64,000 nt of DNA from positions 3,823,001 to 3,887,000 of the forward strand of contig NW_024067666.1 of assembly GCF_009389715.1 (NCBI RefSeq), given 5' to 3'. This stretch comes from Phoenix dactylifera. Lineage: Eukaryota; Streptophyta; Magnoliopsida; Arecales; Arecaceae. Below the pieces are notes generated by a model. It saw only the letters and a program-made list of their open reading frames with translations, was not told the DNA's origin and did not search any database. The first letter of the stretch is position 1. Every line of letters begins with the position of its first letter. A program made the position numbers and the translations under genes. Positions 20,237 through 39,935 of the stretch are shown in pieces.

Positions 20237-20237
<1 letters not shown>

Positions 20238-20277
<40 letters not shown>
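20238..20277. repeat. (TA)n microsatellite
   Basis: An uninterrupted TA run of about 40 bp. Confidence 0.9.
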
Positions 20278-20281
<4 letters not shown>

Positions 20282-20719
20282 GATCTGGATTTACAAAGTT
20301 TATTTAAAAAGGGTTCACATATATATTTTTAATTCTTGATGATTCTAATAGGTCTTAAGAAAACCTAAAAAATGGAAGCTCAGGAAACAATTTCAGTAAA
20401 CTCTTTCTACTACCTTTTTTTTATGCCTTGCAGCCTTAGAATTCCTGAGAAGACAACTGAAATGGATAGATGTGCAACTACCCCTAGACCTTTCTATGTC
20501 CATGGGACATCCCAACATTACTAACACAACAATTGTAACTCTGCTAGCAAATTGAACATTTCTGTGTAATACGAAAGGATAGAAATTTCCTGTATCTTCC
20601 AACAAAAATCTATGGTTGCCCAGCAGTATTTTCTTAATCAGAAAAGCCATGCAACTGGCTAAGGAATTTAATCACTACCCAATATGAAGAGATCTTAAAT
20701 ACAATAGCAAGGCATCATA

Positions 20720-20724
20720 GGGAT
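20720..20724. repeat. left target-site duplication (GGGAT) of the LTR retrotransposon
   Basis: GGGAT immediately before TGTTGG of the 5' LTR is repeated at 33472-33476 immediately after the ...CAACA end of the 3' LTR. Five bp is the normal size for Ty3/Gypsy integrase. Confidence 0.93.
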
Positions 20725-20762
20725 TGTTGGGGGAAAAACCCCAAGTCATACATCCACGGAGG

Positions 20763-20884
20763 CGCTCGGCCAAAGAGCGCCGACCGGAAAGCTGCTCGGC
20801 CAAGGAGTGCCGACCAGAGAGCTGCTCGGCCAAAGAGCGCCGACCGAAAAGCTGCTCGGCCAAGGGGTGCCGACCAGAGAGAGC
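20763..20884 (+). repeat. four 30-bp repeats in U3 of the 5' LTR
   Basis: Four tandem units of GCTCGGCCAA plus (A/G)GAG(C/T)GCCGACC and a GAAA or AGAGA spacer. The same array recurs in the 3' LTR at about 32298-32419. Its position in U3, upstream of the TATA box, suggests enhancer-like repeats, but that is inference. Confidence 0.85.
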
Positions 20885-21541
20885 GCCAAGAAGAGGCGCC
20901 CAGCCAAAATAATCAAAGTAGGGATGCTCGGCTAAAAAGAGCCGACCAGGGGGCAAAAAGCGCCGAATAGAGGCGCTCTGCTAGAAGGTGCTCGCCTAAA
21001 GAGCGCCGACCAGGAGTACTCAGAGCGGCCCCGCCACAGGGCGCCCCATTGGGCGACCAGCTCGGCTCGGCACCCCTGCCGAGCCGATGCCTTAATGTTT
21101 AACCTCCGCCTAAAGTCCAAGTGACTTGACAACTCTTACAGCTTGTAACCTGCCGTTATCTCCAAGCCATCAAGGCATAAGATCTTCGCAGGCATTCGCC
21201 ACGACCTGCCATTAATGCATGAGACTCCCTCAAGTCTCCGATGCACTCAGTCATTTAATGAACACGGCCCAAGACGATCTCCGGATCACTGAACCATCAG
21301 AGCGTATGGCTCTACCTGACCGCCGGTTCATTCGGTAATAAATGCACTTACCATCCACGGACCCCAGGCCCACCATGGCCGGCGGTTCAACAACTCCAAC
21401 AGGTCCGATCGACCGTGACAACTCCCTGGTTCCGGTCTGATCCGGTCCCGTTCTCCACTACGCCATTAATGGGCTAAATCGTGCCCAATTATCACAGAAC
21501 AGGACAAACCTCCGGTCACCTCCCAGGTAACCAAATCTTTT

Positions 21542-21549
21542 TATAAAAG
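21542..21549 (+). promoter_or_regulatory. LTR TATA box
   Basis: TATAAAAG lies 817 bp into the LTR. The same box sits at the same offset in the 3' LTR (33077-33084). Transcription would begin about 30 bp further on, which sets the U3/R boundary. Confidence 0.75.
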
Positions 21550-21937
21550 GAAGCCTGGGGGGAAGAGGGAGGGGACTCTCAGGACCCTTGGGACTGAACC
21601 CTCTTGGACAGCACAGATACAATGGATGACATCATCTTCTTCATCTTCTTGATCTAATCTAAATATTCTGGCTGTCTTCTCCACATACTCTCCTCCCTGC
21701 TCTCTCCACATACTTGCCCCCTCTGACTTAGGCATCGGAGGCCGGCGCCGGGGAGCCCGGCCACCGGCTTTTTTGCAGGACAGGACAGGATTGGATGCAC
21801 CACCCCTCTTCGGACGCTCCCACGCCCCACGGTGGAGGACGCAGCCGGCCGGCGCATCGCCGTCCGCCCCCTGCAGCAGCGGAGCTCCTCCTTCCCCGGC
21901 TTCGCGGCGGCCCCCGGGTCCAATTTCCAGCAACAGT

Positions 21938-21954
21938 TGGCGCTAGAGGAAGGG
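21938..21954 (+). other. likely primer-binding site
   Basis: TGGCGCTAGAGGAAGGG begins two bases after the 5' LTR. It starts TGG, as expected for complement of a tRNA CCA end. It is not the initiator-Met site TGGTATCAGAGC, and Tat elements often use other tRNAs. The tRNA cannot be named from this alone. Confidence 0.5.
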
Positions 21955-22110
21955 CCCGAGTTTGCTGCCATGAAGCTAAGAAGCAAAGGGGCTTCCAATG
22001 CCTCTCAACGTCCTCCACCTAGCCCGGAGCGTTCCGTCCGGAACTCATCACCTCCGACCGAGTCAGTTCATCAAGTTCGGCCGGAGTAGTTCGATGCCCT
22101 GGTACAACAG

Positions 22111-23120
22111 GTGCAGGCCCTGGCTACTGCTGTCCAAAGCCTGCAGCCCAGGGGCATCCCAACGGCACCGCCTCCTCCAGCTCCGGTTCAGCCGGAGCCT
22201 CCTACAAGTGGACTTCCCCTTCAAGGTCAGGACTCCCAAGTCCAGGCCTCCCCCTGGAGAGAGCGCCCAGCCAGAGGCCACGGAGGTTGGCCACAGCCTT
22301 CAGAAGCTGAGTCGGTTCCAGGGCAACCTGCGCCCGAACGAACCGCTGCAGCAATCCTCCAGAACGATGAACTCGACCGGAAGGTCGAGAAGCTGGAACG
22401 TCAAATCCAGACACTCCATGGGAGGAAGTCAGGACATAACGGCGACTTCGAGTTCAATACAAAGTCGCCCTTCTCCCAGGAAATTGAAGATGAACCGGTT
22501 CCGTTGCGGTTCAAGATGCCCCAGGTAGAGCCCTACAACGGCAAGGCTGATCCCCTGGACCACCTGGAAAGCTACCGGGTCTTAATGGCCCTACAAGGAG
22601 CCTCGGAGGCCATGATGTGCAAAGCTTTTCCGGCGACACTCCGAGGACCAGCCCGGTTGTGGTTTACCGGGCTGAAGCCGAGTACTGTCTCCTCCTTTGA
22701 GCAGCTCGGCAGACAGTTTGCTGGCAATTTCGCCGCCAGCCAGCCCCAGCGGCGGACATCCGACTCCCTCCTCGATATCAAACAGAAGGAGGGAGAATCC
22801 TTCAAGGAGTATTTGGATCGGTTCACCTCCGCAACATGGGAGGTCCGGGAGCTTGACCAGTCAATCGCCATGTCGGCGCTGAAGACTGAGCCCGGTCCTA
22901 CAGATTTCTCTTCTCGATCGAGAAGAGTTTTCCCGCGGACCTCACCGAAATGTTCGCTCGGGCGCGGAAGTACGCCAAGGCAGAAGAAGCCGTGGCAGCT
23001 AGGCGGGGCGGAGCCGAGCAGAACCCCAAGAAGAGACGCCGCGAGGAGCGCGGCCAGCCTAAAAGCCCGTCTCCGCAACGAGCTAAGAATCCGCCCCGCC
23101 CAAAGAGTCCACCCCGGCTG
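22111..23120 (+). other. LTR element gag region
   Basis: Fossil capsid-like region of the Ty3/Gypsy element. It shows the plant retrotransposon gag signature (DPLDHLESYRVLM, then MMCKAFPATLRGPARLWF and FKEYLDRF). A short coiled-coil-like Glu/Lys stretch precedes it. It belongs to the defective element at 20725-33471. Confidence 0.85.
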
Positions 23121-23299
23121 AGGGGACCGCCACGGCAGAGGTCACCACCCCGCCCGAGGTTCCCACTGCAAGCCCCTGCACCTGAAGGGAGGTATGAAAG
23201 ATACATTCCCCTCAACGCTCCTCGGGCCGAAATCCTCATGGAGATCGAGAGTCGGGATCGCATCCGGCTCCCACCTCCGAAGCCTGATACCCGAACCCG

Positions 23300-24150
23300 G
23301 CGCGATAACCGGAAGTATTGCCGTTTCCACCGGGATCAAGGCCATGATACCGAGGAGTGTTACCAGCTCCAAAATGAGATCGAAGCACTCATCCGCCGGG
23401 GGGTGCTCGATCGGTTTGTGCAAGGCCGGCGTGAAGAGAAGCAGCCCGCCGAAGGAGCAGCACAGCCTGAAGGTTCGAATGCCAACAGGCCCATCGCCGG
23501 CGTCATCAACACTATCCGAGGAGGAGCCTCGGCTGGAGAAGCTTCGGAGGAAGAAACCTCCTCAAAGCGCCTGCGCGCCTCTGAAGCCATCTCCTTTTCA
23601 GATGATGATTTAGAGGGAGTCGAAACTCCCCATGATGATGCAGTGGTCATCTCCATGATCATAAATAGATTTGATGTAAAACGCATCTTAGTTGATAATG
23701 GAAGCTCGGCGAACGTTTTGTACTTTGGTGCATATTGTAAAATGGGGATGACTAAAGAGCAGCTACGGAGGATGAATGCTCCGTTGGTTGGATTTACTGG
23801 GGATTCAGTCCCAGTAGAGGGCGAGATCGACCTTCTGGTCACAGCCGGGCTCGCCCCCCATGAAAGTACCGTGGGGATGAGCTTCCTCGTGATACGCCAT
23901 CCCTCGGTCTACAATGCCATCCTCGGAAGGCCAGGCCTCAACGCCCTTCGAGCGGTGGTCTCCACTCACCACCTGCTCATGCGATTCCCCACCAGCCAGG
24001 GGGTCGGCGAAGTCCGAGGAGACCAAATGGTGGCAAGGCGATGCTACCTGGCGACCCATGAGGCAAAGCGACCCGCCAAGGTGCCTGCCCCAGCGACTGA
24101 CCAGCCCTCAACCGAGGTTATGGAGGCACGGGTCGACCCTCAGAAAGAGC
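23300..24150 (+). other. LTR element zinc finger and aspartic protease region
   Basis: A Tat-type CRFHRDQGHDTEECYQL zinc-finger motif is followed by a protease with the VDNGSSANVLY active-site motif and the family context (MGMTKEQLRRM, then VYNAILGRPGLNAL). Fossil part of the element at 20725-33471. Confidence 0.85.
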
Positions 24151-24189
24151 GGGTAGAGCCTGTCGTCTCGTCAATTTCCTGCGAGACAA

Positions 24190-25550
24190 CATGGATGTCT
24201 TCGCATGGTCGCCTGCAGACATGCCAGGGATAGATCCAGAGATCATGGTCCACCGGCTCCAAGTAAAGCCGACCAGCAAGCCTGTGCGGCAGAAGAAGCG
24301 AGGTGCCGCCCCTGAGCGCCAGCGAGCAGCAGCCGAGGAGGTCAGTAAGCTCCTTGGAGCTGGCTTCATCCGGGAGATAGCCTACCCGGAGTGGCTCGCC
24401 AATGTGGTCCTCGTCAAGAAAGCCAACGGGAAGTGGCGTATGTGTGTGGACTACACCGACCTGAATAAAGCCTGCCCGAAGGACAGCTTCCCACTTCCCA
24501 GCATCGACCAGCTCGTGGACTCCACCTCGGGTCACGAGCTGCTGGCATTCATGGACGCCTTTTCCGGATACAACCAGATCCGCATGGCGCCAGAAGACGA
24601 GGAGAAGACCGCCTTTATCACCGATGGGGGAACCTACTGCTACAAGGTGTGCCGTTCGGCTTGAAAAATGCCGGGGCAACCTATCAAAGACTGGTCAGCC
24701 GGATCTTCAAAGATCAAATAGGCCGGAATATGGAGGTCCATGTGGATGACATGTTGGTAAAAAGCAAGGTGGCGCAAGATCATATAGCTGACCTCAATGA
24801 AGCATTCTCCACACTCCGAAAGTACCAGATGAAGCTCAATCCAGCCAAATGTGCATTCGAGGTCACCTCCGGCAAATTCCTCGGCTTCATCATTACACAG
24901 CGAGGAATTGAGGCCAATCCAGAGAAGATCCGAGCCCTCCAAAAGATGACGCCCCCCAGGACGGTCAAGGAGATACAACGGCTCACAGGCCGAGTTGCAG
25001 CCCTCGGGAGATTCATCTCCCGCTCGGCTGAGCGCTGCCTTCCATTCTTCGCAGCCCTCAAGAAGCCGAAGAATTTTTTGTGGTCGGACAAGTGCCAGCA
25101 ATCTTTTGAAGAGCTCAAGCACCTCCTGGCTTCCCCTCCCCTGCTCACAAAGCCTCACCAGGGCAAGCTTCTCTACCTGTATCTGGCCGTCTCCCCTGTG
25201 GCAGTAAGCTCGGTCCTGGTCCGAGAGGAGGGCAAACTTCAAAAGCCAGTATATTACACCAGCCGGGTCTTGAGGGACGCCGAGACCCGATACACCAAGC
25301 TTGAGAAGACTGCCTATGCCCTGGTCATCTCAGCTCGGAGGCTCCGACCCTACTTCCAAGCCCACACAGTGGCTGTGCTGACCGACCAGCCGGTCAAGCA
25401 GATCCTGCAGAAATCAGATCGCGCGGGACGGATCGCCAAATGGGCCATCGAGCTCGGGGAATTCGACAAGACCCAGACCGGCGATCAAAGCACAAGCGCT
25501 CGCAGACTTTATTGTCGAGTGCACTATACTGGATGAGATCGAGCCCGAAC
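24190..25550 (+). other. LTR element reverse transcriptase and first RNase H region
   Basis: RT motifs in order: KWRMCVDYTDLNKACPKD, FMDAFSGYNQI, PFGLKNAGATYQRL and the catalytic VHVDDML. The thumb/connection and first RNase H region follow (FLWSDKCQQSFEELK, then YYTSRVLRDAETRY). It is typical of the plant Tat group. Fossil part of the element. Confidence 0.88.
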
Positions 25551-25561
25551 CTGAACCACCA

Positions 25562-26000
25562 GTGGAGCAGACCCCGAGTTTGACATGGACTCTGCATGTC
25601 GATGGCTCTTCAAACTCGGGGGGTAGCGGAGCAGGGCTCATCCTCACTAGCCCAGAAGGGGTGGTCGCCGAGCAAGCCTTGCGCCTCGAGTTCCCTGCTT
25701 CCAATAATATGGCGGAGTACGAAGCGCTCGTCGCCGGGCTCAAGCTAGCCAAAGAGCTAGAAGTGAAGGACTTGAAGGCCTTCAGCGATTCTCAGCTCGT
25801 CGTCAACCAAATTGTGGGCGACTTCGAAGCCAGAGACCCGACCATGCAGAAGTATCTTCAGAAGGTACGGGATCTCGCCTCGACCCTGGACTCTTTTCAC
25901 ATTCAACATGTTGCCAGGTCGGAGAACCTCAGGGCCGACCAGCTATCAAAGCTGGCGTCCTCTCGCATGAGCGAGCTTCCCAAGGAGGCAGTACTGGAGT
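25562..26000 (+). other. LTR element second RNase H region
   Basis: HVDGSSNSGGSGAGLIL, then NNMAEYEALVAGLKLA and FSDSQLVVNQI: the D, E, D acidic residues of an RNase H fold, followed by an HVARSENLRADQLSKLA tail. A second, archaeal-like RNase H between RT-RH and integrase is characteristic of Tat elements. Confidence 0.8.
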
Positions 26001-26149
26001 ATCTCCAAAAGCCTAGTACAGATGAGCCCGAGCAGACCCTCTGCACTGAGTTCGAGCCAAGCTGGATGGACGAACTCATCGGCTACCTGCAAGACGAAGT
26101 CCTCCCCACCGACGAAGAAGAGGCTCGCCGGATCAAACGCCTCGCTACC

Positions 26150-27295
26150 CGGTACATATTGTACGAGGGAAAGCTCTATCGGAGATCCTTCACCTCTCCC
26201 CTCCTCAGATGCCTCCGCCCAACGGAGGCTGATTATGCCCTACGCGAAGTCCACGAAGGGATTTGCGGGAACCATTTGGGAGGGCGAGCATTGGCCCATA
26301 AAATTCTGCGCCAAGGATATTATTGGCCGACACTCCAGAAGGATGCTATGGACTTCGTCCAAAGATGCGACCGGTGCCAAAGGAACGCCAATGTTCAGCG
26401 CCGGCCTTCGGCTCCTTTGACTTCTATCAGCTCCCCTTGGCCCTTTGCCCAGTGAGAAATTGACATCCTAGGGCCATTTCCACTGGCCACCGGGCAAAGA
26501 AAATTTCTGGTCGTCTCCATCGACTATTTCACCAAGTGGGTGGAAGCCGAGCCCCTTGCCCGGATCACCGAGCAGAAGATGCGGGATTTTGTTTGGAAGT
26601 CCATTATCTGCAGATTCGGGCTTCCCCGCATCCTCATCTCTGATAACGGTCGCCAATTCGACAACATTCACTTCAGAGAGTTCTGCTCCGAGCTTGGCAT
26701 TGACCACCGCTTCACCTCGGTCGCGCATCCTCAAACGAATGGAGAAACCGAGGTAACAAATTGTACTATTTTGCAGGGTCTCAAAGCCAGGCTCGACAAA
26801 TCCAAAGGACAATGGGTCGAAGACCTATATAATGTCCTGTGGGCTTACCGGACCACGTTCCGTGTCCCCACCGGTGAGACTCCCTTCAACCTAACATATG
26901 GAACGGAGGCCGTCATCCCACTGGAACTTGGGCTTCCCTCTCCAAGAGTCGAGCATCATGATGCCGGCTCCAACTCTTCGCAGCTCAGAAGCAACCTCGA
27001 CTTGATCGAGGAAACAAGGGAGGCCGCCCGAGTTCGTATGGCGAGGTACCAGCAAAAGACAGCTCAGTACTACAACGCCAGGGTCAAAATCAAATCTTTC
27101 AGACCAGGAGACCTTGTCCTCAGGAGAGCTGAAGTCTCCCGACCAACTGAGCAAGGGAAGCTGGCCCCAAACTGGGAAGGACCATATCGAGTCACGCGCA
27201 TCCACCGACCCGGGACTTATCAGCTAGAGTCCCTAGACGGGACTCTTATTCCGCGGAGCTGGAGCTCTGAAAATCTCCGCGTGTACCATCAGTAG
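26150..27295 (+). other. LTR element integrase region
   Basis: An HHCC zinc-binding part (GNHLGGRALAHKILRQGYYW, then CDRCQRNAN) precedes the catalytic core (KWVEAEPLA, SDNGRQFDN and HPQTNGETE give the D, D, E residues). A GPY/F-like C-terminal end follows (NWEGPYRVTRI). No chromodomain is seen. Fossil part of the element. Confidence 0.88.
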
Positions 27296-27439
27296 AACCA
27301 TATGGGGTTTCCCATTATTCAACTATTGAATTTCGTTTTATGAATTCCATTTTATAATAAATTTATGGTCCGCATACTCATTTTGAGCTCACCGATTTTT
27401 CTGATTATCTCATGGTGTCAGGTTTATTTCTCCTACCTT

Positions 27440-28290
27440 GACCACGGTCAGGATGCCCTGCCGCAACGGGAGGCCCCGGCTATAGGGATGCTCGAGACGC
27501 CGGGATATGAGTTAACGGTCCTCTCTGACCGGACGAGCTCGGCTCGTGCTCCATCGGCTATGAGTTAGCGATCCTCTCTGACCGGACGAGCTCGGCTCGT
27601 GCTCCATCGGCTATGAGTTAGCGGTCCTCTCTGACCGGACGAGCTCGGCTCGTGCTCCTACCCTGAGACGTCAGGATGCCCCAATATATTGGGATGCCCT
27701 GCCGCAACGGGATGCCCCGATCCGTCGGGATGGCCCGAGACGTCGGGATATGAGTTAGCGGTCCTCTCTGACCGGACGAGCTCGGCTCGTGCTCCATCGG
27801 CTATGAGTTAGCGGTCCTCTCTGACCGGACGAGCTCGGCTCGTGCTCCTACCCTGACCACGGTCAGGATGCCCCGAGACGTCGGGATGCCCCGATCCGTC
27901 GGGATGCCCCGAGACGTCGGGATGCCCCGGCTATAGGGACGCTCGAGACGTCGGGATATGAGTTAGCGGTCCTCTCTGACCGGACGAGCTCGGCTCGTGC
28001 TCCATCGGCTATGAGTTAGCGGTCCTCTCTGATCGGACGAGCTCGGCTCGTGCTCCATCGGCTATGAGTTAGCGGTCCTCTCTGACCGGACGAGCTCGGC
28101 TCGTGCTCCTACCCTGACTACAGTCAGGATGCCCCGAGACGTCGGGATGCCCCGGCTATAGGGATGCTCAAGACATCGAGATGAGTAAGCGGTCCTCTCT
28201 GACCGGACGAGCTCGGCTCGTGCTCCATCGGCTATGAGTTAGCGGTCCTCTCTGACCGGACGAGCTCGGCTCGTGCTCCATCGGCTTCAG
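27440..28290 (+). repeat. array of about 53-bp tandem repeats in the element's 3' region
   Basis: About ten copies of a unit that reads GTTAGCGGTCCTCTCTGACC, then GGACGAGCTCGGCTCGTGCTCC and ATCGGCTATGA across short boundaries. They are grouped in twos and threes and separated by a shorter repeat, GGATGCCC(C)GAGACGTCG. Copies are nearly identical. Amplified tandem repeats in this position are a known trait of Retand-type elements. Confidence 0.9.
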
Positions 28291-28323
28291 CCAACGAGTT
28301 CGGCCCGCTCTTCATCACCGGAT

Positions 28324-28880
28324 CTCTGCCGGCGTCCCCAAAGAACGGAGTCCGAGCAGAGAAGTGTCTTCAGTCGCCTTGGCGCAAGGACACATGGTAC
28401 AAGAGAAGCGTCTTCAGTCGCCTCGGCGCAAGGACGCACACGGTACAAGGTACCCATTTATGTAATGCTTTTACATTATTCTATCTATTTTTGGATTTCT
28501 CTGCCAACATCCCCAAAGAACGGAGTCCGAGCAGAGAAGTGTCTTCAGTCGCCTCGGCGCAAGGACACATGGTACAAGAGAAGCGTCTTCAGTCGCCTCG
28601 GCGCAAGGACGCACACGGTACAAGGTACCCATTTATGTAATATTTTTACATTATTTTATCTATTTTCGGATTTTTCTCTGCCGACGTCCCCAAAGAACGG
28701 AGTCTGAGCAGAGAAGTGTCTTCAGTCGCCTCGGCGCGAGGACACATGTTAAAGGTACCCATTTACTTAATGTTTCTACATTAATGTTTTTACATTACCT
28801 ATTCTGTTCTCGGATTTTCTCTGCCGATGTCCTCAAGGAACGGACACCGAGCAGAGGAGCGTCTTCGATCGCCTCGGCGA
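28324..28880 (+). repeat. four tandem units of about 175 bp in the element's 3' region
   Basis: Units start CTCTGCCGGCGTCCCC-like at 28324, 28499, 28676 and 28819 (periods 175, 177 and 143). Each has one or two GTCTTCAGTCGCCTCGGCG sub-repeats and an AT-rich CCCATTTATGTAAT stretch. The third is shortened and the fourth is the most diverged. Confidence 0.85.
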
Positions 28881-29387
28881 AGGAGTGCTCGTGACACCAG
28901 CACATTATCATACAAAGTCCGGCGAATCCCCGTCACAAGCTGACGGGCATTCGACTTGTTCGTTAGAAACGAACGTATTCCGCCCCGGCAACGCGAGGAT
29001 TGAAAATAGGTAACTTCGCTGAAGTTTGAGTCCTGGTGACCGCCTTAGGGCTCGGTCAAGTCCTGGACTAGGCACCGAAAAACTCTCCGAGCTCGAATCC
29101 TTGGTATAAGCTCAAGCGTTGCTATACCACTGGTTGAAGGACCGAGCAATGGAGCTCGGGAAGCCAAACTTAAACTCAAACCCTGTGGCGGGAAAAGCTG
29201 AGGCCCTAGAGCCCATATCCTCGGAACCTAAAACGGATCCGAGCAGAAAAACTTGGACTACGACAGACGAGTTTCCCAAAAAGGAATATATATTCATTTC
29301 AAAAAGGCCCGTAGGCTAAGTACAAAATTCGGGTTTGGCCCTTACAAGTATGGGAGGCCATCCCGACTTTACAAGAAATAACAAAAA

Positions 29388-30239
29388 TTACATCAAAGGC
29401 TCGAGCTCGACCACCTCGGCCTCGGCAGTACCGGGACTGGTTGGCTCAGCACCCGGGACCTCTTCGGTGGCCTCGACAGCAATGGGGGTAGCCTCGGAGG
29501 CGACCTCGGCAACTTCGGGGACGGCTTCGGCCGCCTCGGCCAGACCTCCCTGGTCGACTTCCGGAGTCTCTGCCTCCGCCCCCGGCCTTTCGACCCCTGC
29601 TCCCGGTTTGAGCAGGTTTACATCGAAGTCCGGGAGAAGCCGCCGCAACTGGTTGCGGAAATCCCGGAAGCCTTGGATCAGCCCGTTCACGCCCTCCTCT
29701 GCCATGAGTTCGCAAAACTCCTCCGACTCGCGGAAGAGCTTCACTGCGTTTTGGGCGTTCTCCCGGGCCTCTATCTCCCGGGCCTCGTGGTACGCGGCTC
29801 TCCGCTCGAGGCCCCTCAGCTCCTGCTCGAGCTCCGAATGTCGGAGGCGGGCATCCCCCACCTCCTGCTCGCGGGAGGCCAACGCCTGCTCGGCTTTGGC
29901 CAATCGAGCCTCTGCGGCGCGCAGCTCGGACCTCGCCAATGCGTGCGCGCCCTTCTCTTCATCGAGCTCAGCGGTCAGAGCTCGAATCTTTTCATCAGAT
30001 GCTCCGACTTTCCCTTGGAGCACCTGCTGTTCGGCCTCAGAGGCCTGGTATTTCTCCTTGGAGGCCAGGTACTTCGCCTCGGCGGCCATGTACCTCTTCT
30101 GGGCCTCCTCGTAGCTGCGCTGGCACCTCCGGGCTTTCTCCCGGTACTCTTGAACCAGGTGCATCAGCATCTCTGTCTCGTGCAAGTGCTGTAAAAGAGA
30201 GACGTAAGGCGCCACGAGTAAAAAATCTCTACAAATCAC
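29388..30239 (-). other. antisense frame of the LTR element: coiled-coil protein part
   Basis: A long Glu/Ala/Arg-rich frame on the strand opposite to gag-pol. It has heptad-like coiled coil (repeats of LASREQEV, EARLAKAEQAL, ELRGLERR type) and an acidic tail. Antisense frames in the 3' region are a known feature of several Tat elements. A consensus splice donor and acceptor pair separates it from the next frame upstream, as expected for a spliced antisense transcript. Its function is not known. Confidence 0.6.
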
Positions 30240-30987
30240 GTAAGAGGAAAATTTTACTCACCCGGACGGTATTGCAGCGGGTAATGTCCATGAAAGCGTT
30301 GTAGCTCATGGACTGCATCATGGCCCGGTCAGCCGGGAGCAGCGCGAGCCGAAATACCTCGCGCGCCACTTGTGGGTTTTCGAGGGCTGAGTCACCCTCG
30401 AACACTGACCAGGTGGGTGCATAGGGCACCCGTTCCTCCGAGCCTGATAGGCCCGGAAGGCCAGCATCGGCTGGCCTAGGCAGAGCCGACCCCGGGGCTC
30501 CCTGACTGCTCCCCGTCGCGGAGCTAGGGGGCTGGGGTCGGATGAGCGGCCGATCTGACCGCCGCACAACTATAGCGGGGCGTGCAAGCACGGGACTCGC
30601 TGAACTCCTCCCCTGGTCGGCAACTGGAGCGTCCTGCCGACCAGGGACCTGCGCCAAGGGCGCCAGGCATAGGGGCACCATCGGGGCTCTGGAGCCCGAG
30701 CCCCCGGAGCCCGCGCCCTCTCTCCGATCAGCCTCAGGGCGTGCGGGCTGAGAAGGACCCGCCTCGGAGTCAGCGGGGCGAGAAGGCCCCGCCTCGGGAT
30801 GCGCAGGGCGAGAAGGCCCCGCCTCGGGATGCGCGGGGCGGGAAGGACCCACCTCGGCCACCACTGCCGCCGAGGGAGTCGAGGTTGCCGAGACCTTCTG
30901 CTTCTTTCTCGACTCGGTGGGCTCTCCTGAGAGCTCGGCCGCTCTCTTCTGGAAGCGAGTATAAAGAACTTCGCTCTTCGTCACCAT
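30229..30987 (-). other. antisense frame of the LTR element: Pro/Ser/Ala-rich part with repeats
   Basis: A disordered Pro-rich frame with a 10-residue peptide repeat (GPSRPAHPEA, four to five copies). An intron-like segment with GT and AG ends lies on each side. It shares strand and spacing with the frames at 29388-30239 and 31129-31725, so the three probably belong to one antisense unit. Confidence 0.55.
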
Positions 30988-31128
30988 CTTTGCGATGTCT
31001 GCAAAGACGAATAAAATTAGAACATTAGAACAATTAAGGAAATAAAAGGTTGCTGTAACTATCCTTACCCTGAGGACGTGCCGAGCTCAGGCCCACGTTC
31101 ACCAGAGCGTCCTCGCTAATGAGGCCGT

Positions 31129-31725
31129 TCAGCAAAATCCCGTCCCCAAGGCTGCGGATGGTGTCGAGGATCTCCTGCTCACGCGGAGAAAGCTGGGGGG
31201 GCCTGTTGATGGACTTAAGCTGGGCCGGCCTCCACCTGGGGTCAAACCCCAGGACCGTTCAGAGCCCAGGAAGAAGAATTTCTCCTTCCAGCCATGAATG
31301 GATGAGGGGGCACCATGGAAGAGTGGCCGACCCGCCCGAAGGGCAATGTAGAGCCACTCCCCGTCTCCCGGATTCGACTTAAAAATAAAAAGTCGCCGGA
31401 AGACGTTGACAGAGGTAGGAATCCCCTGCAGTAAACACAGTGACAGGAAGCCCATCACTGTCCTCCAAGCGTTCGGAGTAAGTTGCGCCGGAACCAACTG
31501 GCATACCGCCAGCAACTCATTCACGAAGCTGTGAAGAGGAAACCGGAGGCCGGCCCAGAGTGACTCCGAGTGCACTCCGATCCGGCCCACCGGAGGATCG
31601 GTTATCCGATCCCTTCGCCTGGCGGGTTCCAAACGGAACCCGTGAAGAGGGAAAAACCACTCTTCGGTCATCTCGACCTCCAGGACACTCATGGTGGACA
31701 CTACTTCACTAGGCAAAGAACCCAT
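31129..31725 (-). other. antisense frame of the LTR element: putative gypsy-type domain (PF04195-like)
   Basis: The frame begins at an ATG. It contains FPLHSFVNELLAVCQLVP and LTPNAWRTVMGFLSLCL, then FRRLFIFKSNPGDGEWLYI and GWKEKFFFL. These match my memory of the plant domain called putative gypsy type transposon (PF04195), which accompanies Ty3/Gypsy elements. It lies about 140 bp downstream (in antisense sense) of a TATATAAA box. It is probably slightly broken. Its role is unknown. Confidence 0.65.
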
Positions 31726-31862
31726 TGCAAGAGAGAGAAGTCAAAAAGAAGGGGGACCTGGGGAAGATGCCGGAGAAAAGGGACTTCGGTCTGAGGAAGA
31801 CTGGAAGAATAGGAAGCTGGAAGCAGAAAGCAATAGAAAGAGGACAGGGGGCCGGGGGAGAG

Positions 31863-31870
31863 TTTATATA
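31863..31870 (-). promoter_or_regulatory. TATA-like box for the antisense unit
   Basis: On the minus strand CTATATAAAC lies about 140 bp before the ATG of the antisense frame. It is the only strong TATA match in the vicinity, so an internal antisense promoter is plausible. No transcript evidence is available. Confidence 0.5.
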
Positions 31871-32242
31871 GACCTCCCCAACGGCCCGGATCAGCGAAGA
31901 AAACGCTGCGTCCCGGTTAGATGATAACACGTGTCGGTCTAAAAGACAGAACGACGCATTTAATTAGGGCTAGCGCTTCGAACATCGAAGCGCCCCATCG
32001 GATCGTGCGGAAAGGCGTCCGCAATCGAAGATCGTGCGGCCCCATCATGAGCCCACGACGCGAGGACGCTTCGCAAAAAGTGTCCCAATAATGAGGCTTT
32101 TCGGGAAAGAAGAGACGCCGCCTATTAAAGGCACCTCGAAGCTTCCGATAATTCAAAACGCGCAGTAAATCGAAATTTTCGGAATTCGTAATGACCCAAC
32201 TAAAGCTACTTCCCGCGCTCCAGCTGGTAGCCAACTGGAACT

Positions 32243-32259
32243 CGGAAGTCGGGGGGTAG
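32243..32259 (+). other. polypurine tract
   Basis: GGAAGTCGGGGGGTAG-like purine run directly before the 3' LTR, where plus-strand priming is expected. Two pyrimidines interrupt it. Confidence 0.6.
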
Positions 32260-33471
32260 TGTTGGGGGAAAAACCCCAAGTCATACATCCACGGAGGCGC
32301 TCGGCCAAAGCGCGCCGACCGGAAAGCTGCTCGGCCAAGGAGTGCCGACCAGAGAGCTGCTCGGCCAAAGAGCGCCGACCGGAAAGCTGCTCGGCCAAGG
32401 GGTGCCGACCAGAGAGAGCGCCAAGAAGAGGCGCCCAGCCAAAATAATCAAAATAGGGATGCTCGGCTAAAAAGAGCCGACCAGGGGGCAAAAAGCGCCG
32501 AATAGAGGCGCTCTGCTAGAAGGTGCTCGCCTAAAGAGCGCCGACCAGGAGTACTCAGAGCGGCCCCGCCACAGGGCGCCCCATTGGGCGACCAGCTCGG
32601 CTCGGCACCCCTGCCGAGCCGATGCCTTAATGTTTAACCTCCGCCTAAAGTCCAAGTGACTTGACAACTCTTACAGCTTGTAACCTGCCGTTATCTCCAA
32701 GCCATCAAGGCATAAGATCTTCGCAGGCATTCGCCACGACCTGCTATTAATGCATGAGACTCCCTCAAGTCTCCGATGCACTCAGTCATTTAATGAACAC
32801 GGCCCAAGACGATCTCCGGATCACTGAACCATCAGAGCGTATGGCTCTACCTGACCGTCGGTTCATTCGGTAATAAATGCACTTACCATCCACGGACCCC
32901 AGGCCCACCACGGCCGGCGGTTCAACAACTCCAACAGGTCCGATCGACCGTGACAACTCCCTGGTTCCGGTCTGATCCGGTCCCGTTCTCCACTACGCCA
33001 TTAATGGGCTAAATCGTGCCCAATTATCACAGAACAGGACAAACCTCCTGTCACCTCCCAGGTAACCAAATCCTTTTATAAAAGGAAGCCTGGGGGGAAG
33101 AGGGAGGGGACTCTCAGGACCCTTGGGACTGAACCCTCTTGGACAGCACAGATACAATGGATGACATCATCTTCTTCATCTTCTTGATCTAATCTAAATA
33201 TTCTGGCTGTCTTCTCCACATACTCTCCTCCCCGCTCTCTCCACATACTTGCCCCCTCTGACTTAGGCATCGGAGGGCCGGCGCCGGGGAGCCCGGCCAC
33301 CGGCTTTTTTGCAGGACAGGACAGGACTGGACGCACCACCCCTCTTCGGACGCTCCCACGCCCCACGGTGGAGGACGCAGCCGGCCGGCGCATCGCCGTC
33401 CGCCCCCTGCAGCAGCGGAGCTCCTCCTTCCCCGGCTTCGCGGCGGCCCCCGGGTTCAATTTCCAGCAACA
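32260..33471 (+). repeat. 3' LTR (1212 bp)
   Basis: Near-identical partner of 20725-21935, with about twelve substitutions and one single-base length difference by eye. It starts TGTTGG and ends CAACA, followed at once by the GGGAT target duplication. Confidence 0.95.
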
Positions 33472-33476
33472 GGGAT
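33472..33476. repeat. right target-site duplication (GGGAT)
   Basis: It matches 20720-20724 exactly and so fixes the right boundary of the LTR element. Confidence 0.93.
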
Positions 33477-33764
33477 GTTGTGGTATCCTACCCAATCTAA
33501 CCTTCATCCTATCCTTCTTGTTTCGGCGGCCCCCACCCCTAGGAGTGCTCAAGACCATGATGGATTTCTGATTGGAGATTATGTGGGGAGACTCATTTGT
33601 GTTGCCTCCAGATTACTGCCTTTAAATCCAGTGCCAGCATCAGTCTTACAAGCAGCCTAGGAAGGCTTGTGTGCAACTTATTTTGGCTTAATGCCATATA
33701 GATATGGCTAAAGAGAGACTCACAAAATGTGCAAGGAATTCAATAATCTCCACCAAGTAACCCC
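33477..33764. other. short flank between LTR element and LINE
   Basis: About 290 bp of non-coding sequence separates the two insertions. It continues the pre-insertion sequence left of 20720 and right of 39691. No gene is seen. Confidence 0.5.
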
Positions 33765-33779
33765 TCCTCAAAATTCTTT
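33765..33779. repeat. left target-site duplication of the LINE
   Basis: TCCTCAAAATTCTTT (15 bp) recurs exactly at 39676-39690 on the other side of the LINE. It abuts the A-tail, as target-primed reverse transcription predicts. Confidence 0.93.
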
Positions 33780-33808
33780 TTTTTTTTTTTTTTGCTAATA
33801 CGGGTGGA

Positions 33809-36800
33809 TCATACCTGTCGGGTACGGATACACCCAATAAAGTCAAAAAATAGGATACTTCGGAGTGCCAAAGGCAACTCCCCATCACCAGTCCACAATG
33901 TGTCTCCGGAATGGCAAGCTACAAATGCAGCCACCCAATCCGCAGCCCCATTGGCTTCACGGTAGATGTGCTTGGCCTGAAAGGCCCCTCCATCCCTCGC
34001 CATAGTCCATATATCACGAAGCAAAGGGTGGTCACTACCGTCACCCTTAGGACCCTCTCGGATCCAACTGATAACGGTGGCAGAATCACCCTCTAGGGTG
34101 ATAGACCTAGCCTGTAACACGCACCGAGCATGACGAAAGCCTGCCCAGGCAGCGCTCAGCTCCGCACTCGGAACCGAGGTATCAAATAAGTGACTACCAC
34201 CAGCGGCTACAACCCTAGCGAAAGGGTCCCGAATGACGAAGCCCGCACCACCCCTCGTGCCACCATCTAGGACTGACCCGTCAAAATTGACCTTGAGAAA
34301 ACTCGGGGGTGGGGGCTCCTAGGTGAAAAACACCGTGTGAGATGCTGCCGAAGCAAGGTGGGGGCCCCAGATGTCCCGAGCTGTCAAGGTCCCTCCAGTG
34401 GAGGAGGCATGACACATCTCTGCCGCCTGACTCCGGGCGCTCTCGGCCACAAATCTCGGCGGCATACATCGTTCACCAAAAATACGAGCGTTCCTAGCCA
34501 ACCAGATCTGGTAGGCAGTGCAGCTCACTCGAGTCACCTCCTGACGAAGCGCCGGAGACTCCGAGGCCAGGCGCATGGCCTGTAAGAACTGGTCCCTACA
34601 GAACCATACCGGCTGCGGAACCCCAGCCAAACGCCAAGTATCCCTCGCCCTAGAGCACCGAAACAAAGTATGGTCGACCGTCTCGGCCACACCGCACACC
34701 CCACACTCCAGGGGGATCCTCAATCCTCGTCCACCAAGTACTGCTCTCGTTGGAAGACGATCCCAGACCACCTTCCAGAGGAACAGCGCAACCCTCGGGA
34801 GAAGGCCCAATCGCCAGATCCAGGCACAGTCAGGACCAGGTACATACTCCCGCCTAAGAATGCGGGAAAGGACGCTCATCCTGACTCTGGGACTGGTCGA
34901 GGAGCTCCACACTCGTACATCTGGTCCACCACTCTGTGGCAGAGGGAGGGAGCGAATCCGCTCCGCCAGATGCTCCCCGAAGAAGCGGGCTAACCGAGTC
35001 TTGTCCCATCCAGCCTCCCCGGGAGTCATAAGATCACAGACCTGTAAACCCTCCCCAGCCTCAACACTAACAGTAGTCGGCCAACGGCACAGGGGGAGGC
35101 CATCAACCCATGAGTCCCTGGTCACGTCAATACTGCGGCCATCGCCTATCAGCCATCGAGTGTGAACCGACACCATGGGCACATATCTCGCAATCTCACG
35201 CCATAAAAAGGAACACCCCCGCCCACCTCGAACCCCGCCCTCCCGGCCTACCCCCCATAGCGGGCGGTCATGATCCGGGTCCAGAAGCTCTGCGGCTCCA
35301 GGATGAAGCGGGAAGCGTGCCGGGCGAGGAGCACCTCTCGTCTCTCCCGGAGAGACAACACCCCAAGGCCACCCTCCCTGAGAGGGAGGCAAATACTCTC
35401 CCATGCCACCAGGTGCACCCCACGGCCCCCACCAAGCGAGCCCCATAAGAAGCCCCGAATCAGTCGTTCAATCTTTAGTAGGACGGATCGTGGTACCACC
35501 GTGCTAGTCATGAGATAGATAGGCATAGAGCCCAAAACAGATCTAATCAGCAAAACTCTACCCATCATAGATAGAGACGCTGCTCGCCAACCCTCTAGCC
35601 TACTCTGGACCCGTTGCACCATCCCGGAGCACTCAGATACACGCAGTCTCCTACCTGTGATCGGAACACCCAGGTATGTCCAGGTCCCGTCCTGCTCAGG
35701 CATCTCCAGAATCCTCCGAATCTCACGTCGAACCCCGAGTGGCGAACTCGGGCTAAAGGAGATAGAGGATTTCTGGGCATTCACTCTCTGACCAGATGCA
35801 TAGCAATAGGCAGCCAAAGCCCGCCTAATAGCCAGGGCATCTGCTACGCGGGCACGCGTCAGGAGTAGGCAGTCATCGGCGAATAGTAAATGGGATATCG
35901 GCTGGGCCCCTAGAGCTGGGACGTAAGCCTCCAGCTCTCCGGCGACACATGCAGCCCGCAGCAATCGAGACAAAACATCAGAACAGATGATGAATAGGTA
36001 CGGGGATAGCGGGCATCCCTGCCGAAGCCCCATAGTAGAGCTAAAGAATGGGGACGGAGAGCCGTTGATCAAGATGGAGAACCGCGGACTCCGAACACAC
36101 CCCATAACCCAACCAATCCAGGTCTCATGGAAACCCAGACTCTCCAAAGCTCGCCTAAGAAAACTCCACCTGATTCTATCGTAAGCTCGCTCCATGTCCA
36201 GCTTGATAGCCATCAGGCTTCGACGCTTCGGGGCCCGGCGAAGATCCCACATCATCTCTTGGGCCACCATAGCGTTATCGAAAATACTCCTACCTCCAAC
36301 AAAAGCACCTTGCTCTTGACAAATAATGCCGGAGAGGAAAGGCTTCATACGATCCATCAGAATTCTTGCCACCACTTTGTATAAAGTAGTGCACAAACTG
36401 ATCGGTCTAAAGTGGCACGGCTCGGACGCATCCGTTCGCTTAGGTATAAGCGTGACAAAAGTGGCCTTCCAGTCGTCAGGCATACCTGACCGACTAAAGA
36501 AACACAGGACCGCTTCTACCACTGCGAACCGAACGATGCTCTAGTATCTCCAGAAAAAGAAAGGAGGGAAGCCATCTGGGCCCGGAGCCCTGTCCTCGCC
36601 CAATGCCCAGACAGCCTCTCGCACCTCCCCCTCCGTCACTGGTCGAACCAATAGTGCATTCGCAGCCACCCCGATTTGGGATTCAGCTCTCGGGAGCAAG
36701 CCAGCAACGTCCGACCCACTATCCTCCGTCCAGCGGGAGCGAAAGAACTCGAGTAGGATGTGGCTAATCGCCGAATCATCGTCCACCCAAAGACCCCGCT

Positions 36801-37953
36801 CATCCCGCAAGGAACGAATAGTGTTCCTCTGCCTCCTAATAACCGTCGATCGGTGAAAGAAACTAGTGTTCCGGTCACCCTCTCTGACCCACTGAATTCT
36901 GGATTTCTGTCTCCAGAAAATCTCATGTTGCCGTAGGATCGAGTGGTGGGTGGCGAGTAGTCCCCGGAGGCTCACCATATCAGCCTCTGGGAGCACGCCC
37001 ACCTGATCCTCCCTGCTTTGGAGGGCAGCAATCGCACCCTCCACATCTTCCAGCTTCCTAAAAATATCACCTACGACCTCCCGATTCCAGCGACGTAGCC
37101 GTCGCTTGGTCAATTCCAGTTTTCGTGAAATCCTCTGCATGGCGTCGCCGTGGACCGGCAGACCCCAAGCTCCCCGGACGATGTCCCAGGATTGAGGAAA
37201 GGATAGCCAAACTTTCTCGAAACGGAATGGGCTACGATGACTCGAGCCTGATGCCGTCGAGAACAGCAGAGGACAATGATCCGAAGCAATCCGAGTAAGA
37301 TGGCTAACCCTATAGGACGGAAATTTGATGAGCCAGTCAGTAGAAGCAACAACCCTGTCCAGTCGCTCCCACACCCTAGCTCGTCCGGATTGGTTGTTAC
37401 ACCAAGTGAAGCGCGGACCTGAGAAACCCAGATCTACTAGGCCGTTCCGCGAGAGGAAATCGCGGAACTCCCTCCTATCCACTGAGTCAGTGAAGGCCCT
37501 GCCTCCTCGTTTCTCACTCTCCTCCAAGATACAATTGAAGTCACCCACCATCACAGCCGGAAGGCCCAGAGCAAGTAGGTGGGTGAGCTCATCCCACAGA
37601 ACCCTCCTGGTTCGATGGTTAGTGCTGGCATACACTCCGCACAAGACCCACGGAGCAGCGTTAGGTTCCGAGATGGTCATGATGACCTGTTGGGAGCAGT
37701 TGTGGAATACGTCAATCGTAGCCACACCCCGCTTCCACAGAGCCACAATGCCCCCCGACAACCCCTGGGAGTCTACTGCATACGACTCCCAGTCAACCTC
37801 TAACCGTCGTAAGACACGACTGAGTCCTCTACCGGAAAGTCGTGTTTCATAAAGTAGGCAGATCTCCGGACTATGGATCTGGACCAGCCGCCTAAAGGAT
37901 GACATAAAGGCCAGCTTAGCCGCCCCTCTACAATTCCACGCAAGAATCCTCAT
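33809..37953 (-). pseudogene. LINE ORF2: APE endonuclease, reverse transcriptase, zf-RVT, RNase H
   Basis: It starts at ATG 37953. APE motifs: RILAWNCRGAA, LLYETRL, VMVGDFNCIL and ASDHCPLLF (37953-37240). RT motifs: LIPKRTDASEPCHFRPIS, KLDMERAYDRIRW, LRQGCPLSPYLF and LLFADDCLLL (about 36480-35800). Then zf-RVT (RVALFLWKVVWDRLPTRAVL, CGVCGVAETVDHTLFRC) near 34810-34630, and an RNase H domain (VNFDGS, AELSAAW, LEGDSATVISW, YREANGAADWV) at about 34300-33850. Breaks: a TAG at 36541-36543, a frameshift near 35260 beside a run of six G, and a TAG at 34319-34321. Family knowledge: plant L1 elements with an archaeal-like RNase H are described, and this fits. The catalytic acidic residues look kept. 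Confidence 0.9.
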
Positions 37954-39674
37954 GGGAAAAAGTCCGAGAGGTCGGCCACAGGCTCATCGACCCTCTGGGC
38001 CATAGGGTCTATCACCATCTCACAATCAGGATCACCCTGCTGACCCTCATCCGTGCTAGTCCCAGACACTACTCGCAGCACAGCCGCCTTCACCCGTTGA
38101 ACAACAGTCGAGTGATCCACGGTCGAGCGAGTAGCCCCCTCATGACCACTGGGGTCCCCTACCCCTGGCTCCACCAGTACAAGCGTATCCCGCCTCATCG
38201 ACTCCACAGGTGCCGACGTATCCCGCCCCACCAAGGAGTCGCTCATGGGGCAGTCGTCGCAGATGGGAACCTCACTCGTACTAGTCGCGTCACCCAGCTC
38301 TGACTCGCCCGAGGCACCATCTCCCTGTCCCACAGCCACCTCTAGAGAACCTAGAGAGGCGAGGCAGACGGACGGCGGGTCCTGCCCCGGGGCCTGAGCC
38401 CCGAAGTGGAACTCGCTGGCACTGGGCCCCGCAGCCTGGGCTAGTGGGTTGGGCCCTGAATCGGACCCCATAAGGCCCGTTTGGGCCGTGAACAGTGGGA
38501 GGCCCCCGCCCACAGGGGCCTTCCCACGGTCATCCGCGCGAGGCCCAGCCAAGCTGGGCCACGCGTTAGCCTCCGCGCGACGGGCCAGGGGGCCCGTCGC
38601 GCGGTTCACCGCGTGAAACACGCGGGGCACACGTGCCCCGCGAGTCGCTAGTCCTCCGTGGCCCGCCCGACCTCGGCCCAAGGAACGGCCCACCTCCAGA
38701 AGCCCAGAGATCCTGTTCCGTTTCTTGGGCTGAAGCACGGGCTGGCCCATCGACCCAGAACACGGCCCGGCCTGATCCGACAGACCGGCCCGAGTCCCCA
38801 GCAACCCAGTCCTGTTAGCCGAGGGCACCGAGTCGACTCGTCCCGCGATCGAGTCACCAGCCATGTCAACTCGGGAGCTCTCCTCATGTCCGCCAGTGGC
38901 CCGGGCCGCCACCACCGGCGGGGAGTGGCGGCGGGCCACCTTCGTAGGCTTTTGCCAGCCCTCAAGATCCGGCGGGGACACCGGAGGGCTGGTCGAGGAG
39001 GGGGGACTCGGCGGAGTAGGTCGAGGTAAGGGGGACCCCGCAGAAGGCTCGGTCACCTTCCCCCGCTCCGGCGGACCCTTCTCCCGTGGCTGCCGGGCGC
39101 GGGATGTGACCAACCACGGGCCATAGATCAGGCCCGAACCCACATCCCCCGGTGAACTAGCTCCGGTCGGAGTCGGAGCCCCAAACCGGCACGCCGGCTC
39201 GAGGTGCCCGATTCTACCACACCGGACGCACAGGTCCGAAACGCTTTCGAAGACAAAGGGCTGCCAAATGGTCTTCGACCTTCCCTGTATCCGAATCCCT
39301 GGGAGGAGGGGTTCGGAGGCGTCGATAGCCACCTTAACCCTAGCGAAACCCATGGCACGCCGCCCCTCTGTGACACTGTCAACGGCCATGGGCCTCCCTG
39401 CCTTGGCGGCGATGTCCATAATGGTCGAGGGCGACCAATACTCCGGGGGGAGCCCCGGTAGCCGGAGCCAGACCACCACGGACTTCACAGGGGTTTCCCT
39501 GGGTAGAAAGTCCGGCGCCCACGGCTCCATAGCCAAAAGTTGGCCGGCCACCACCCAGGGGCCCTCCAACAGAGCTCGGTCCCGGAGCTCCGGCGACCGG
39601 AACCGCAAAGCAAAATGATCTTCAGCGAGGGAGACCCCCACCACCTCCCCTGTTTTCTTCAACCGGGCGGCCAC
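37950..39674 (-). pseudogene. LINE ORF1 (nucleic-acid-binding protein), N-terminally truncated
   Basis: 574 codons remain, open from the truncation edge to the stop. The front part is DUF4283-like: LRFRSPELRDRALLEGPWVV, then VVVWLRLPGLPPEYW and IAAKAGRPMAVD. A CCHC zinc knuckle follows (CVRCGRIGHLEPAC, about residues 150-163), then a long Pro/Gly/Ser-rich disordered tail. No ATG heads the frame; the first codon at the element edge is GTG, which fits 5' truncation of the LINE. The stop overlaps the ORF2 ATG as ATGA, so ORF2 may be reached by termination-reinitiation. In the family this protein coats the LINE RNA. Confidence 0.85.
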
Positions 39675-39675
39675 G

Positions 39676-39690
39676 TCCTCAAAATTCTTT
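39676..39690. repeat. right target-site duplication of the LINE
   Basis: TCCTCAAAATTCTTT, identical to 33765-33779. Confidence 0.93.
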
Positions 39691-39935
39691 ACTCAGCATA
39701 TTTGGCAAACTAAAAGAGCCGTCCAAGCTCTCATTATTGCGACAGATAGAGAGAATAACAAAAAAGAAAAGAAAAGAACAAGAGTGTACAATATTTATGT
39801 GGTTCGATTTATTGATCTATGTCCATAGGCAAAGATGCTGCAAAAATTTTATTATAGAAACTGAAGATTACAAAGCACGAGATTTCCTCGCAAATTCTAA
39901 CGTCCAATGCACCCAATTTCTAAAACACTCAATTC
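39691..39935. mobile_element. possible worn LTR fragment
   Basis: The string GAGAGAATAACAAAAAAGAA, then ATGTGGTTCG and CTATGTCCATAGGCAAAGATG resembles a stretch I associate with LTRs of plant Copia elements (acgtggttcgg..cctacgtccacgg). Only this similarity supports it. No ends, partner LTR or coding sequence could be found, so it is a tentative fossil. Confidence 0.3.

Follow-up and report, generated by a model that had tools for sequence, protein, structure and literature searches.

The internal region of a Tat/Retand-like retrotransposon of Phoenix dactylifera quite probably carries an accessory gene of its own, which would be transcribed in antisense from a TATA promoter and whose three exons are predicted to be spliced into the message for one protein. 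The element lies in a 64,000-nucleotide stretch of genomic DNA, which is referred to here as the window. The conserved introns suggest that reading frames which appear to be separate belong to one selected gene.

A separately promoted, spliced antisense gene had been proposed in a sequence-only reading of the window, and on the comparisons described here it is still the best reading: the TATA box, the splice sites, the frame-preserving indels and dN/dS values of 0.15-0.33 all point to it. The same values show that the frames are conserved across copies, so that a Ka/Ks near 1, which that reading had named as the result that would count against it, was not what we found.

The host element and the antisense frames

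A single retrotransposon bounded by long terminal repeats (LTRs) fills positions 20725-33471 of the window, with gag-pol on the plus strand (Table 1) and a pair of LTRs that are 98.9% identical (1213 columns; 12 mismatches, 1 gap opening). Besides RT_RNaseH matches, the Pfam search of pol returned a separate RVT_3 match (E=7.5e-21) and, further on, an RNase_H match (E=1.7e-07). In the frame at 25382-26455, downstream of the RT_RNaseH frame, RVT_3 (residues 73-191) lies ahead of Integrase_H2C2 (286-336), and it is from this position that we infer the second RNase H copy to be of the aRH type. The polyprotein of the window element has the second RNase H (aRH) that is a trait of the Tat clade, and it has it between RH and integrase, a Retand trait common to Ogre; PMC6317226 gives this placement as the mark of Ogre and Retand. 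Retand elements are also described as having a long region between pol and the 3' LTR (2.9-6.6 kb), with an antisense TRP28 ORF (PMC6317226, PMC11963269); in the window element this distance is about 5.0 kb (27295 to 32260), and PF04195 lies on the minus strand. The host is a Tat/Retand-like Ty3/gypsy element. A nested DNA transposon, a candidate prompted by the name Transposase_28, was set aside because the papers cited here place PF04195 in retrotransposon ORFs.

Some further features of the neighbourhood may be recorded. Both LTRs contain a 30/60-bp tandem repeat (GCTCGGCCAA... units), at 20764-20881 and 32299-32416. Just past the 3' LTR is a minus-strand LINE-like element (33809-39692) with an Exo_endo_phos endonuclease (E=6.5e-10), in which RT-like, RNase H-like and zinc-knuckle-like frames were recognised by eye. 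Rfam gave no match at the gathering threshold over 20000-34500.

Table 1. Positions of the element's features and of the predicted antisense gene in the window copy
Feature	Position	Strand	Remarks
5' LTR	20725..21935	+	TG...CA ends; TSD GGGAT 20720-20724
gag-pol region	22090..27295	+	several frames in window copy; RT, RNase H, RVT_3, integrase (Pfam)
Tandem arrays	27506..28748		between pol and 3' end of the antisense gene; repeated palindromic motifs
Exon 3 (predicted)	29388..30188	-	Glu/Ala-rich; stop 29388-29390
Intron 2 (predicted)	30189..30261	-	73 nt, GT-AG (GTGAGT...TTTTACAG), phase 0
Exon 2 (predicted)	30262..30998	-	Pro/Ala-rich; variable decapeptide repeat 30743-30857; basic cluster RKKQKV 30909-30892
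Intron 1 (predicted)	30999..31068	-	70 nt, GT-AG (GTAAGG...TTTGCAG), phase 1
Exon 1 (predicted; PF04195/TRP28)	31069..31725	-	matched stretch about 31572-31381; frame shift near 31255 in window copy
TATA box TATATAAA	31863..31870	-	145 nt ahead of ATG 31725
3' LTR	32260..33471	+	TG...CA ends; TSD GGGAT 33472-33476

The sequence-only reading had placed three consecutive minus-strand frames opposite to gag-pol. The frames themselves are present in the ORF list of the window (31129-31740, 30229-31086 and 29388-30257), but they lie in antisense orientation between pol, whose last frame ends at 27295, and the 3' LTR. That reading had also described a PF04195-like domain, GT- and AG-ended segments between the frames, and a TATA box some 140 bp before the first ATG. 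A profile search matches PF04195 in exon 1 (E=2e-14; score 54 bits, cut-off 26.2), both gaps have GT...AG ends, and the TATA box stands close to the distance given there. Worked by hand, the joins are in frame at both introns, exon 1 to exon 2 in phase 1 and exon 2 to exon 3 in phase 0. The first frame does hold the PF04195 match, but its end at 31129 lies past a frame break: exon 1 of the window copy changes frame near 31255, and the remainder, up to the donor (31068), is read in a different frame. The parts on either side of the change were read separately and left unjoined, and the window copy, given this shift, probably makes no full protein.

The decapeptide repeat of exon 2 is real (3.8 units of 30 bp, or ten residues each), but its number differs among copies by a loose pattern and it was not found on reading through a single distant exon 2, that of L090, a locus of another family. 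Because of this variation and this absence, the repeat is not a defining feature of the gene. The basic cluster in the same exon, which we take to resemble a nuclear localization signal (NLS), is kept as RKKQK/RKKAK in 36 of 38 copies and reads RKKAR in L090. The product of exon 3 is, from its sequence, probably helical; the coiled coil once assigned to it draws weak support from a heptad heuristic applied to one copy (L042), with 33 of 500 shuffles reaching the observed value. A PDB sequence search with the window protein gave no match. Just past the antisense stop, a T-rich stretch (29280-29400, minus strand) with TTGTA and AATGAA is a plausible plant polyadenylation region.

Conservation and selection across copies

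The genome (773 Mb, 2391 contigs) was searched with exon 3, and at least 135 places were scored from 3886 first-look candidates. Forty places were taken across the range of identity; L027 and L031, which align over the 3' part only, were dropped, so that the set for comparison consists of 38 copies and the window. The cassette does recur in other genomic copies, a point that the sequence-only reading had put forward as a check. The TATA position is in view in 37 of the 40 places, and all 37 have the box (TATATAAA in 32, TATTTAAA in 5), as do six of six upstream stretches examined from other families, where it reads TATATAA(A/G); such a conserved core promoter motif is a trait of the Grande gene23 type. 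The eight TATA columns have a mean conservation of 0.958, against 0.867 and 0.851 just below. The stretch above the box is fairly conserved too (0.888; K 0.124), which could reflect either promoter or plus-strand constraint.

Splice dinucleotides are kept in 35 to 38 of the 38 copies (donor 1 in 35, acceptor 1 and donor 2 in 37 each, acceptor 2 in all 38), with intron lengths of 67-71 nt for intron 1 and 73-90 nt for intron 2. Exon 1 measures 657 nt in 32 of the 38 other copies. All three exons are open in 14 copies and at least one is broken in 24, by a strict count in which any stop, or any length not divisible by three, makes an exon broken and in which the ends of the pieces are alignment-based.

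Taken across copies, the TATA box, the splice sites, the codon-position pattern and dN/dS go beyond what chance would give. Third codon positions are the most variable in all exons, as judged from per-column variation. Relative to the window, indels are multiples of three in 76 of 87 cases in exon 2 and 101 of 118 in exon 3, as against 0 of 43 in intron 1 and 2 of 33 in intron 2; the corresponding figure for exon 1 (1 of 47, the other 46 not being multiples of three) is mostly due to the window's own shift, to judge from the 657-nt lengths. Values of dN/dS were obtained from 20 of the 39 rows, at less than 97% pairwise identity (190 pairs). They are 0.151 and 0.228 for the two parts of exon 1 (31725-31261 and 31249-31070), 0.331 for exon 2 and 0.254 for exon 3, and the dS of the exons (0.28-0.37) is near the intron K of 0.307. 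The remaining minus frames and two of the three plus frames have dN/dS of 1.08-2.15.

Could the antisense frames have arisen by chance, or be relics, in a GC-rich sequence and be devoid of function? Plus-strand frames in the region are also long (264 and 270 aa), and the mirrored plus frames have a dN/dS of 0.17-0.36, a low value that arises because third positions are shared. However, stop-codon cells number 154-1235 in the mirrored frames and 0-75 in the minus frames, and different families share a well-conserved exon 1 (see below), so that we consider this explanation extremely improbable. Another proposal would make the antisense unit mainly a non-coding RNA, which regulates or silences the element by forming double-stranded RNA with the genomic RNA. 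An antisense transcript would necessarily overlap the genomic RNA, and the possibility has been raised in PMC7264820, but the protein frames have a dN/dS of 0.15-0.33 and a dS near the intron divergence, which makes it very improbable as the main function, while being compatible with an additional RNA effect.

A comparison with pol gives a measure of how tightly the antisense protein has been kept. Twenty pol regions were taken; 16 of them gave alignments longer than 800 bases, and the 97% filter left 13 rows, one of which is the window. In these same 13 rows, dN/dS is 0.07-0.12 for the pol pieces and 0.156-0.315 for the antisense exons, and dN in exons 2 and 3 exceeds that in the pol pieces by a factor of about 2.5-4. 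This comparison argues for selection on the antisense protein that is weaker than that on pol; as read from these alignments, selection kept the protein during the spread of the family, less tightly than pol.

How could introns persist in an element that moves through RNA? A sense-strand intron would be lost on reverse transcription. Reverse transcription takes the sense RNA as its template, where splice sites of the opposite strand go unread, and the introns of an antisense gene would survive each round because the copied RNA does not expose their splice signals. In line with such survival, probes for the two spliced junctions found 0 matches each in the genome at up to 3 mismatches, while a probe for the unspliced exon-3 acceptor found 27 at the same stringency (junction and acceptor probes of 41, 48 and 38 bases, the exon-3 acceptor serving as control for the junction of exons 2 and 3). 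L023 and L025 were considered as intron-less copies on account of a 775-aa open frame and were rejected, as both keep intron 2. In these copies the intron is 81 nt long and lies inside the open frame, which its retention would not break.

Relatives in other families and the adjoining tandem arrays

A genome search for PF04195, in which the best 150 of 3465 candidates were scored, extends the comparison beyond the window family. Among the matches listed, those with the best PF04195 scores come from families other than that of the window, and 12 of the top places were taken. Exon 1 of seven other-family loci (alignment A1) is 56-75% identical to that of L011, a window-family copy; a PDB sequence search with A1 gave one match, at chance level (E=0.33). 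Ten of the 12 other-family loci have the signals of intron 1 in the same position and phase: (G/A)GTAAG(G/A) stands directly after the end of exon 1, and CAG and then AYAT, across the acceptor, come about 108-117 nt further along. In the scan of the 12 loci, neither intron-1 signal was found in L070, and the exon-1 end motif was absent from L076. PF04195 was found in 0 of 14 control genomes, and a pattern scan of IMG/VR for relatives returned 25 matches, none of them confirmed.

Exons 2 and 3 were both seen in only one of four downstream stretches, that of L090. L087 and L088 have an exon-2-like frame at the start and no clear exon 3, and the L089 stretch has no frame of more than 70 aa. Exon 3 of L090 is 36% identical to that of the window over 200 columns, and a 74-nt GT-AG intron occurs at the same codon boundary as intron 2 (CNTVR-HLHE versus CNTAR-HIHE, the hyphen marking the boundary). 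The homology at first seemed to end sharply at the L090 splice sites, but these edges were an artefact of cut queries; with uncut queries, weak similarity extends upstream of exon 3 by about 23 residues and past the end of exon 2 by 8. The L090 locus supports the position of the intron-2 signals, and not an abrupt edge of homology.

This run-on similarity slightly raises the probability of another reading, namely that there are three separate antisense frames, each translated alone, with the intron-like segments as mere spacers. An ATG lies near the start of exon 2 (30987), and L090 has an in-frame ATG inside the intron upstream of exon 3, a segment into which the weak similarity with the window reaches; some of that similarity may come from a pyrimidine-rich acceptor sequence common to both. 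The ORF-based survey in PMC11963269, moreover, lists 104 antisense ORFs in 63 clusters. Separate translation is nevertheless quite improbable: splice sites are conserved in the 38 copies, the intron-1 signals recur in 10 of 12 other-family loci, the phases join the frames, and the supposed spacers gather the frame-breaking indels described above (multiples of three in 0/43 and 2/33). A single three-exon gene is the reading that we prefer.

The tandem arrays next to this predicted gene have units whose length varies from about 119 to 175 bp in the window and five divergent copies (L091-L095), with their motifs kept. Each of the six holds 1-10 exact copies of ACGAGCTCGGCTCGT, 4-16 of GACGTC (about 0.5 being expected from base composition, ignoring tandem copying) and 5-9 occurrences of a 20-base core when up to 5 substitutions are allowed. 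The 17-bp array of the distant L096 is unrelated. For two array units, folding into paired hairpins was better than for most shuffled sequences (z -2.0 and -3.0).

How might the arrays relate to the gene? VANDALs are DNA transposons, unlike the retrotransposon of the window. The VANC system of VANDAL elements resembles the window element in combining an element-encoded protein with family-specific tandem arrays in the element (PMC5735166, PMC10398659), and VANC targets are often tandem repeats (PMC5735166). VANC proteins bind such repeats of their own elements and take away methylation and silent chromatin. By analogy, the same antisense gene could have an anti-silencing role, with a protein that binds the element's own arrays and removes silent chromatin. 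The arrays adjoin the gene in five of five divergent copies, the palindromic motifs are kept despite the change in unit length, and the NLS-like cluster is found in 36 of 38 copies. Exon 1, however, is conserved across families, yet one distant array (L096) is unrelated, which favours a partner shared among families over binding of specific arrays by exon 1, and tandem homogenisation alone could yield such arrays. We judge the anti-silencing role rather unlikely. A more specific version would unite the gene and its downstream arrays in one self-recognition system, in which the TRP28 protein re-enters the nucleus, binds the array palindromes and shields or de-silences its own family. This version, also built on the VANC analogy, is distinctly unlikely; if true, it would be a VANC-like anti-silencing device of independent origin in LTR retrotransposons.

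Known antisense genes and the proposed role

Genes of this kind are already known from other elements. Antisense ORFs with PF04195 occur in 97% of recently active Retand (PRARE) clusters (PMC11963269). The Retand antisense TRP28 ORFs (Vicient 2025, PMC11963269) are like those of the window in their position between pol and the 3' LTR, their orientation, their PF04195 domain and their tandem arrays, and the window domain, compared by eye, agrees with all six conserved TRP28 positions reported there (G21, P25, L34, P46, N47 and F55). Maize Grande gene23 has its own promoter and encodes a nuclear protein; like the window gene, for which the promoter is predicted, it is an accessory gene that lies in antisense in the 3' part of the internal region (PMC7264820). 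ORF4 of Silene Retand, also antisense and with PF04195, has been reported to be weakly and ubiquitously expressed (PMC7264820).

The sequence-only reading had considered the combination of features worth describing. This holds for the introns, which go unmentioned in the main texts of PMC11963269 and PMC7264820, where the word "intron" is absent (as is "TATA" from the former); it does not hold for antisense PF04195 ORFs and an own promoter, both already published. PMC11963269 describes separate ORFs, whereas the window gene would have three exons with conserved introns. No paper among the matches listed reports introns in such antisense genes, though Gomez-Orte 2013 and Steinbauerova (Genetica) may do so. 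The kind of gene is known, and the conserved introns are an added detail.

The simplest account of the gene is as follows. Transcription would start at the TATA promoter, which is situated between the 3' LTR and the gene, and proceed in antisense, and splicing of both introns would join the three exons. The predicted protein would begin with the TRP28 (PF04195) module, continue with a Pro/Ala-rich linker that bears the basic NLS-like cluster, end in a Glu-rich C-terminal part, and be imported into the nucleus. It is probably a nuclear accessory regulator whose target is the element itself, be it the DNA, the RNA or the chromatin, a guess based on motif and composition; a nuclear regulatory role is also favoured in PMC7264820 and PMC11963269.

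A spliced gene of this type would bear on how extra ORFs are counted. PMC6317226, which found PF04195 in 23% of Retand elements and asks whether extra ORFs function, set a limit of at least 250 codons; exon 1, with 219 codons, and exon 2, which has about 245 in the window, are too short for it. PMC11963269 accepted ORFs of at least 600 bp, plus shorter TRP28 ORFs, and under that limit the three exons would be tallied as separate ORFs. Perhaps the antisense ORFs labelled Smc and polIII gamma/tau in that survey are exons 3 and 2, respectively, of the TRP28 gene. Study of antisense and spliced transcripts has been urged in PMC7264820, and the present data offer a testable gene model together with selection on its protein frames.
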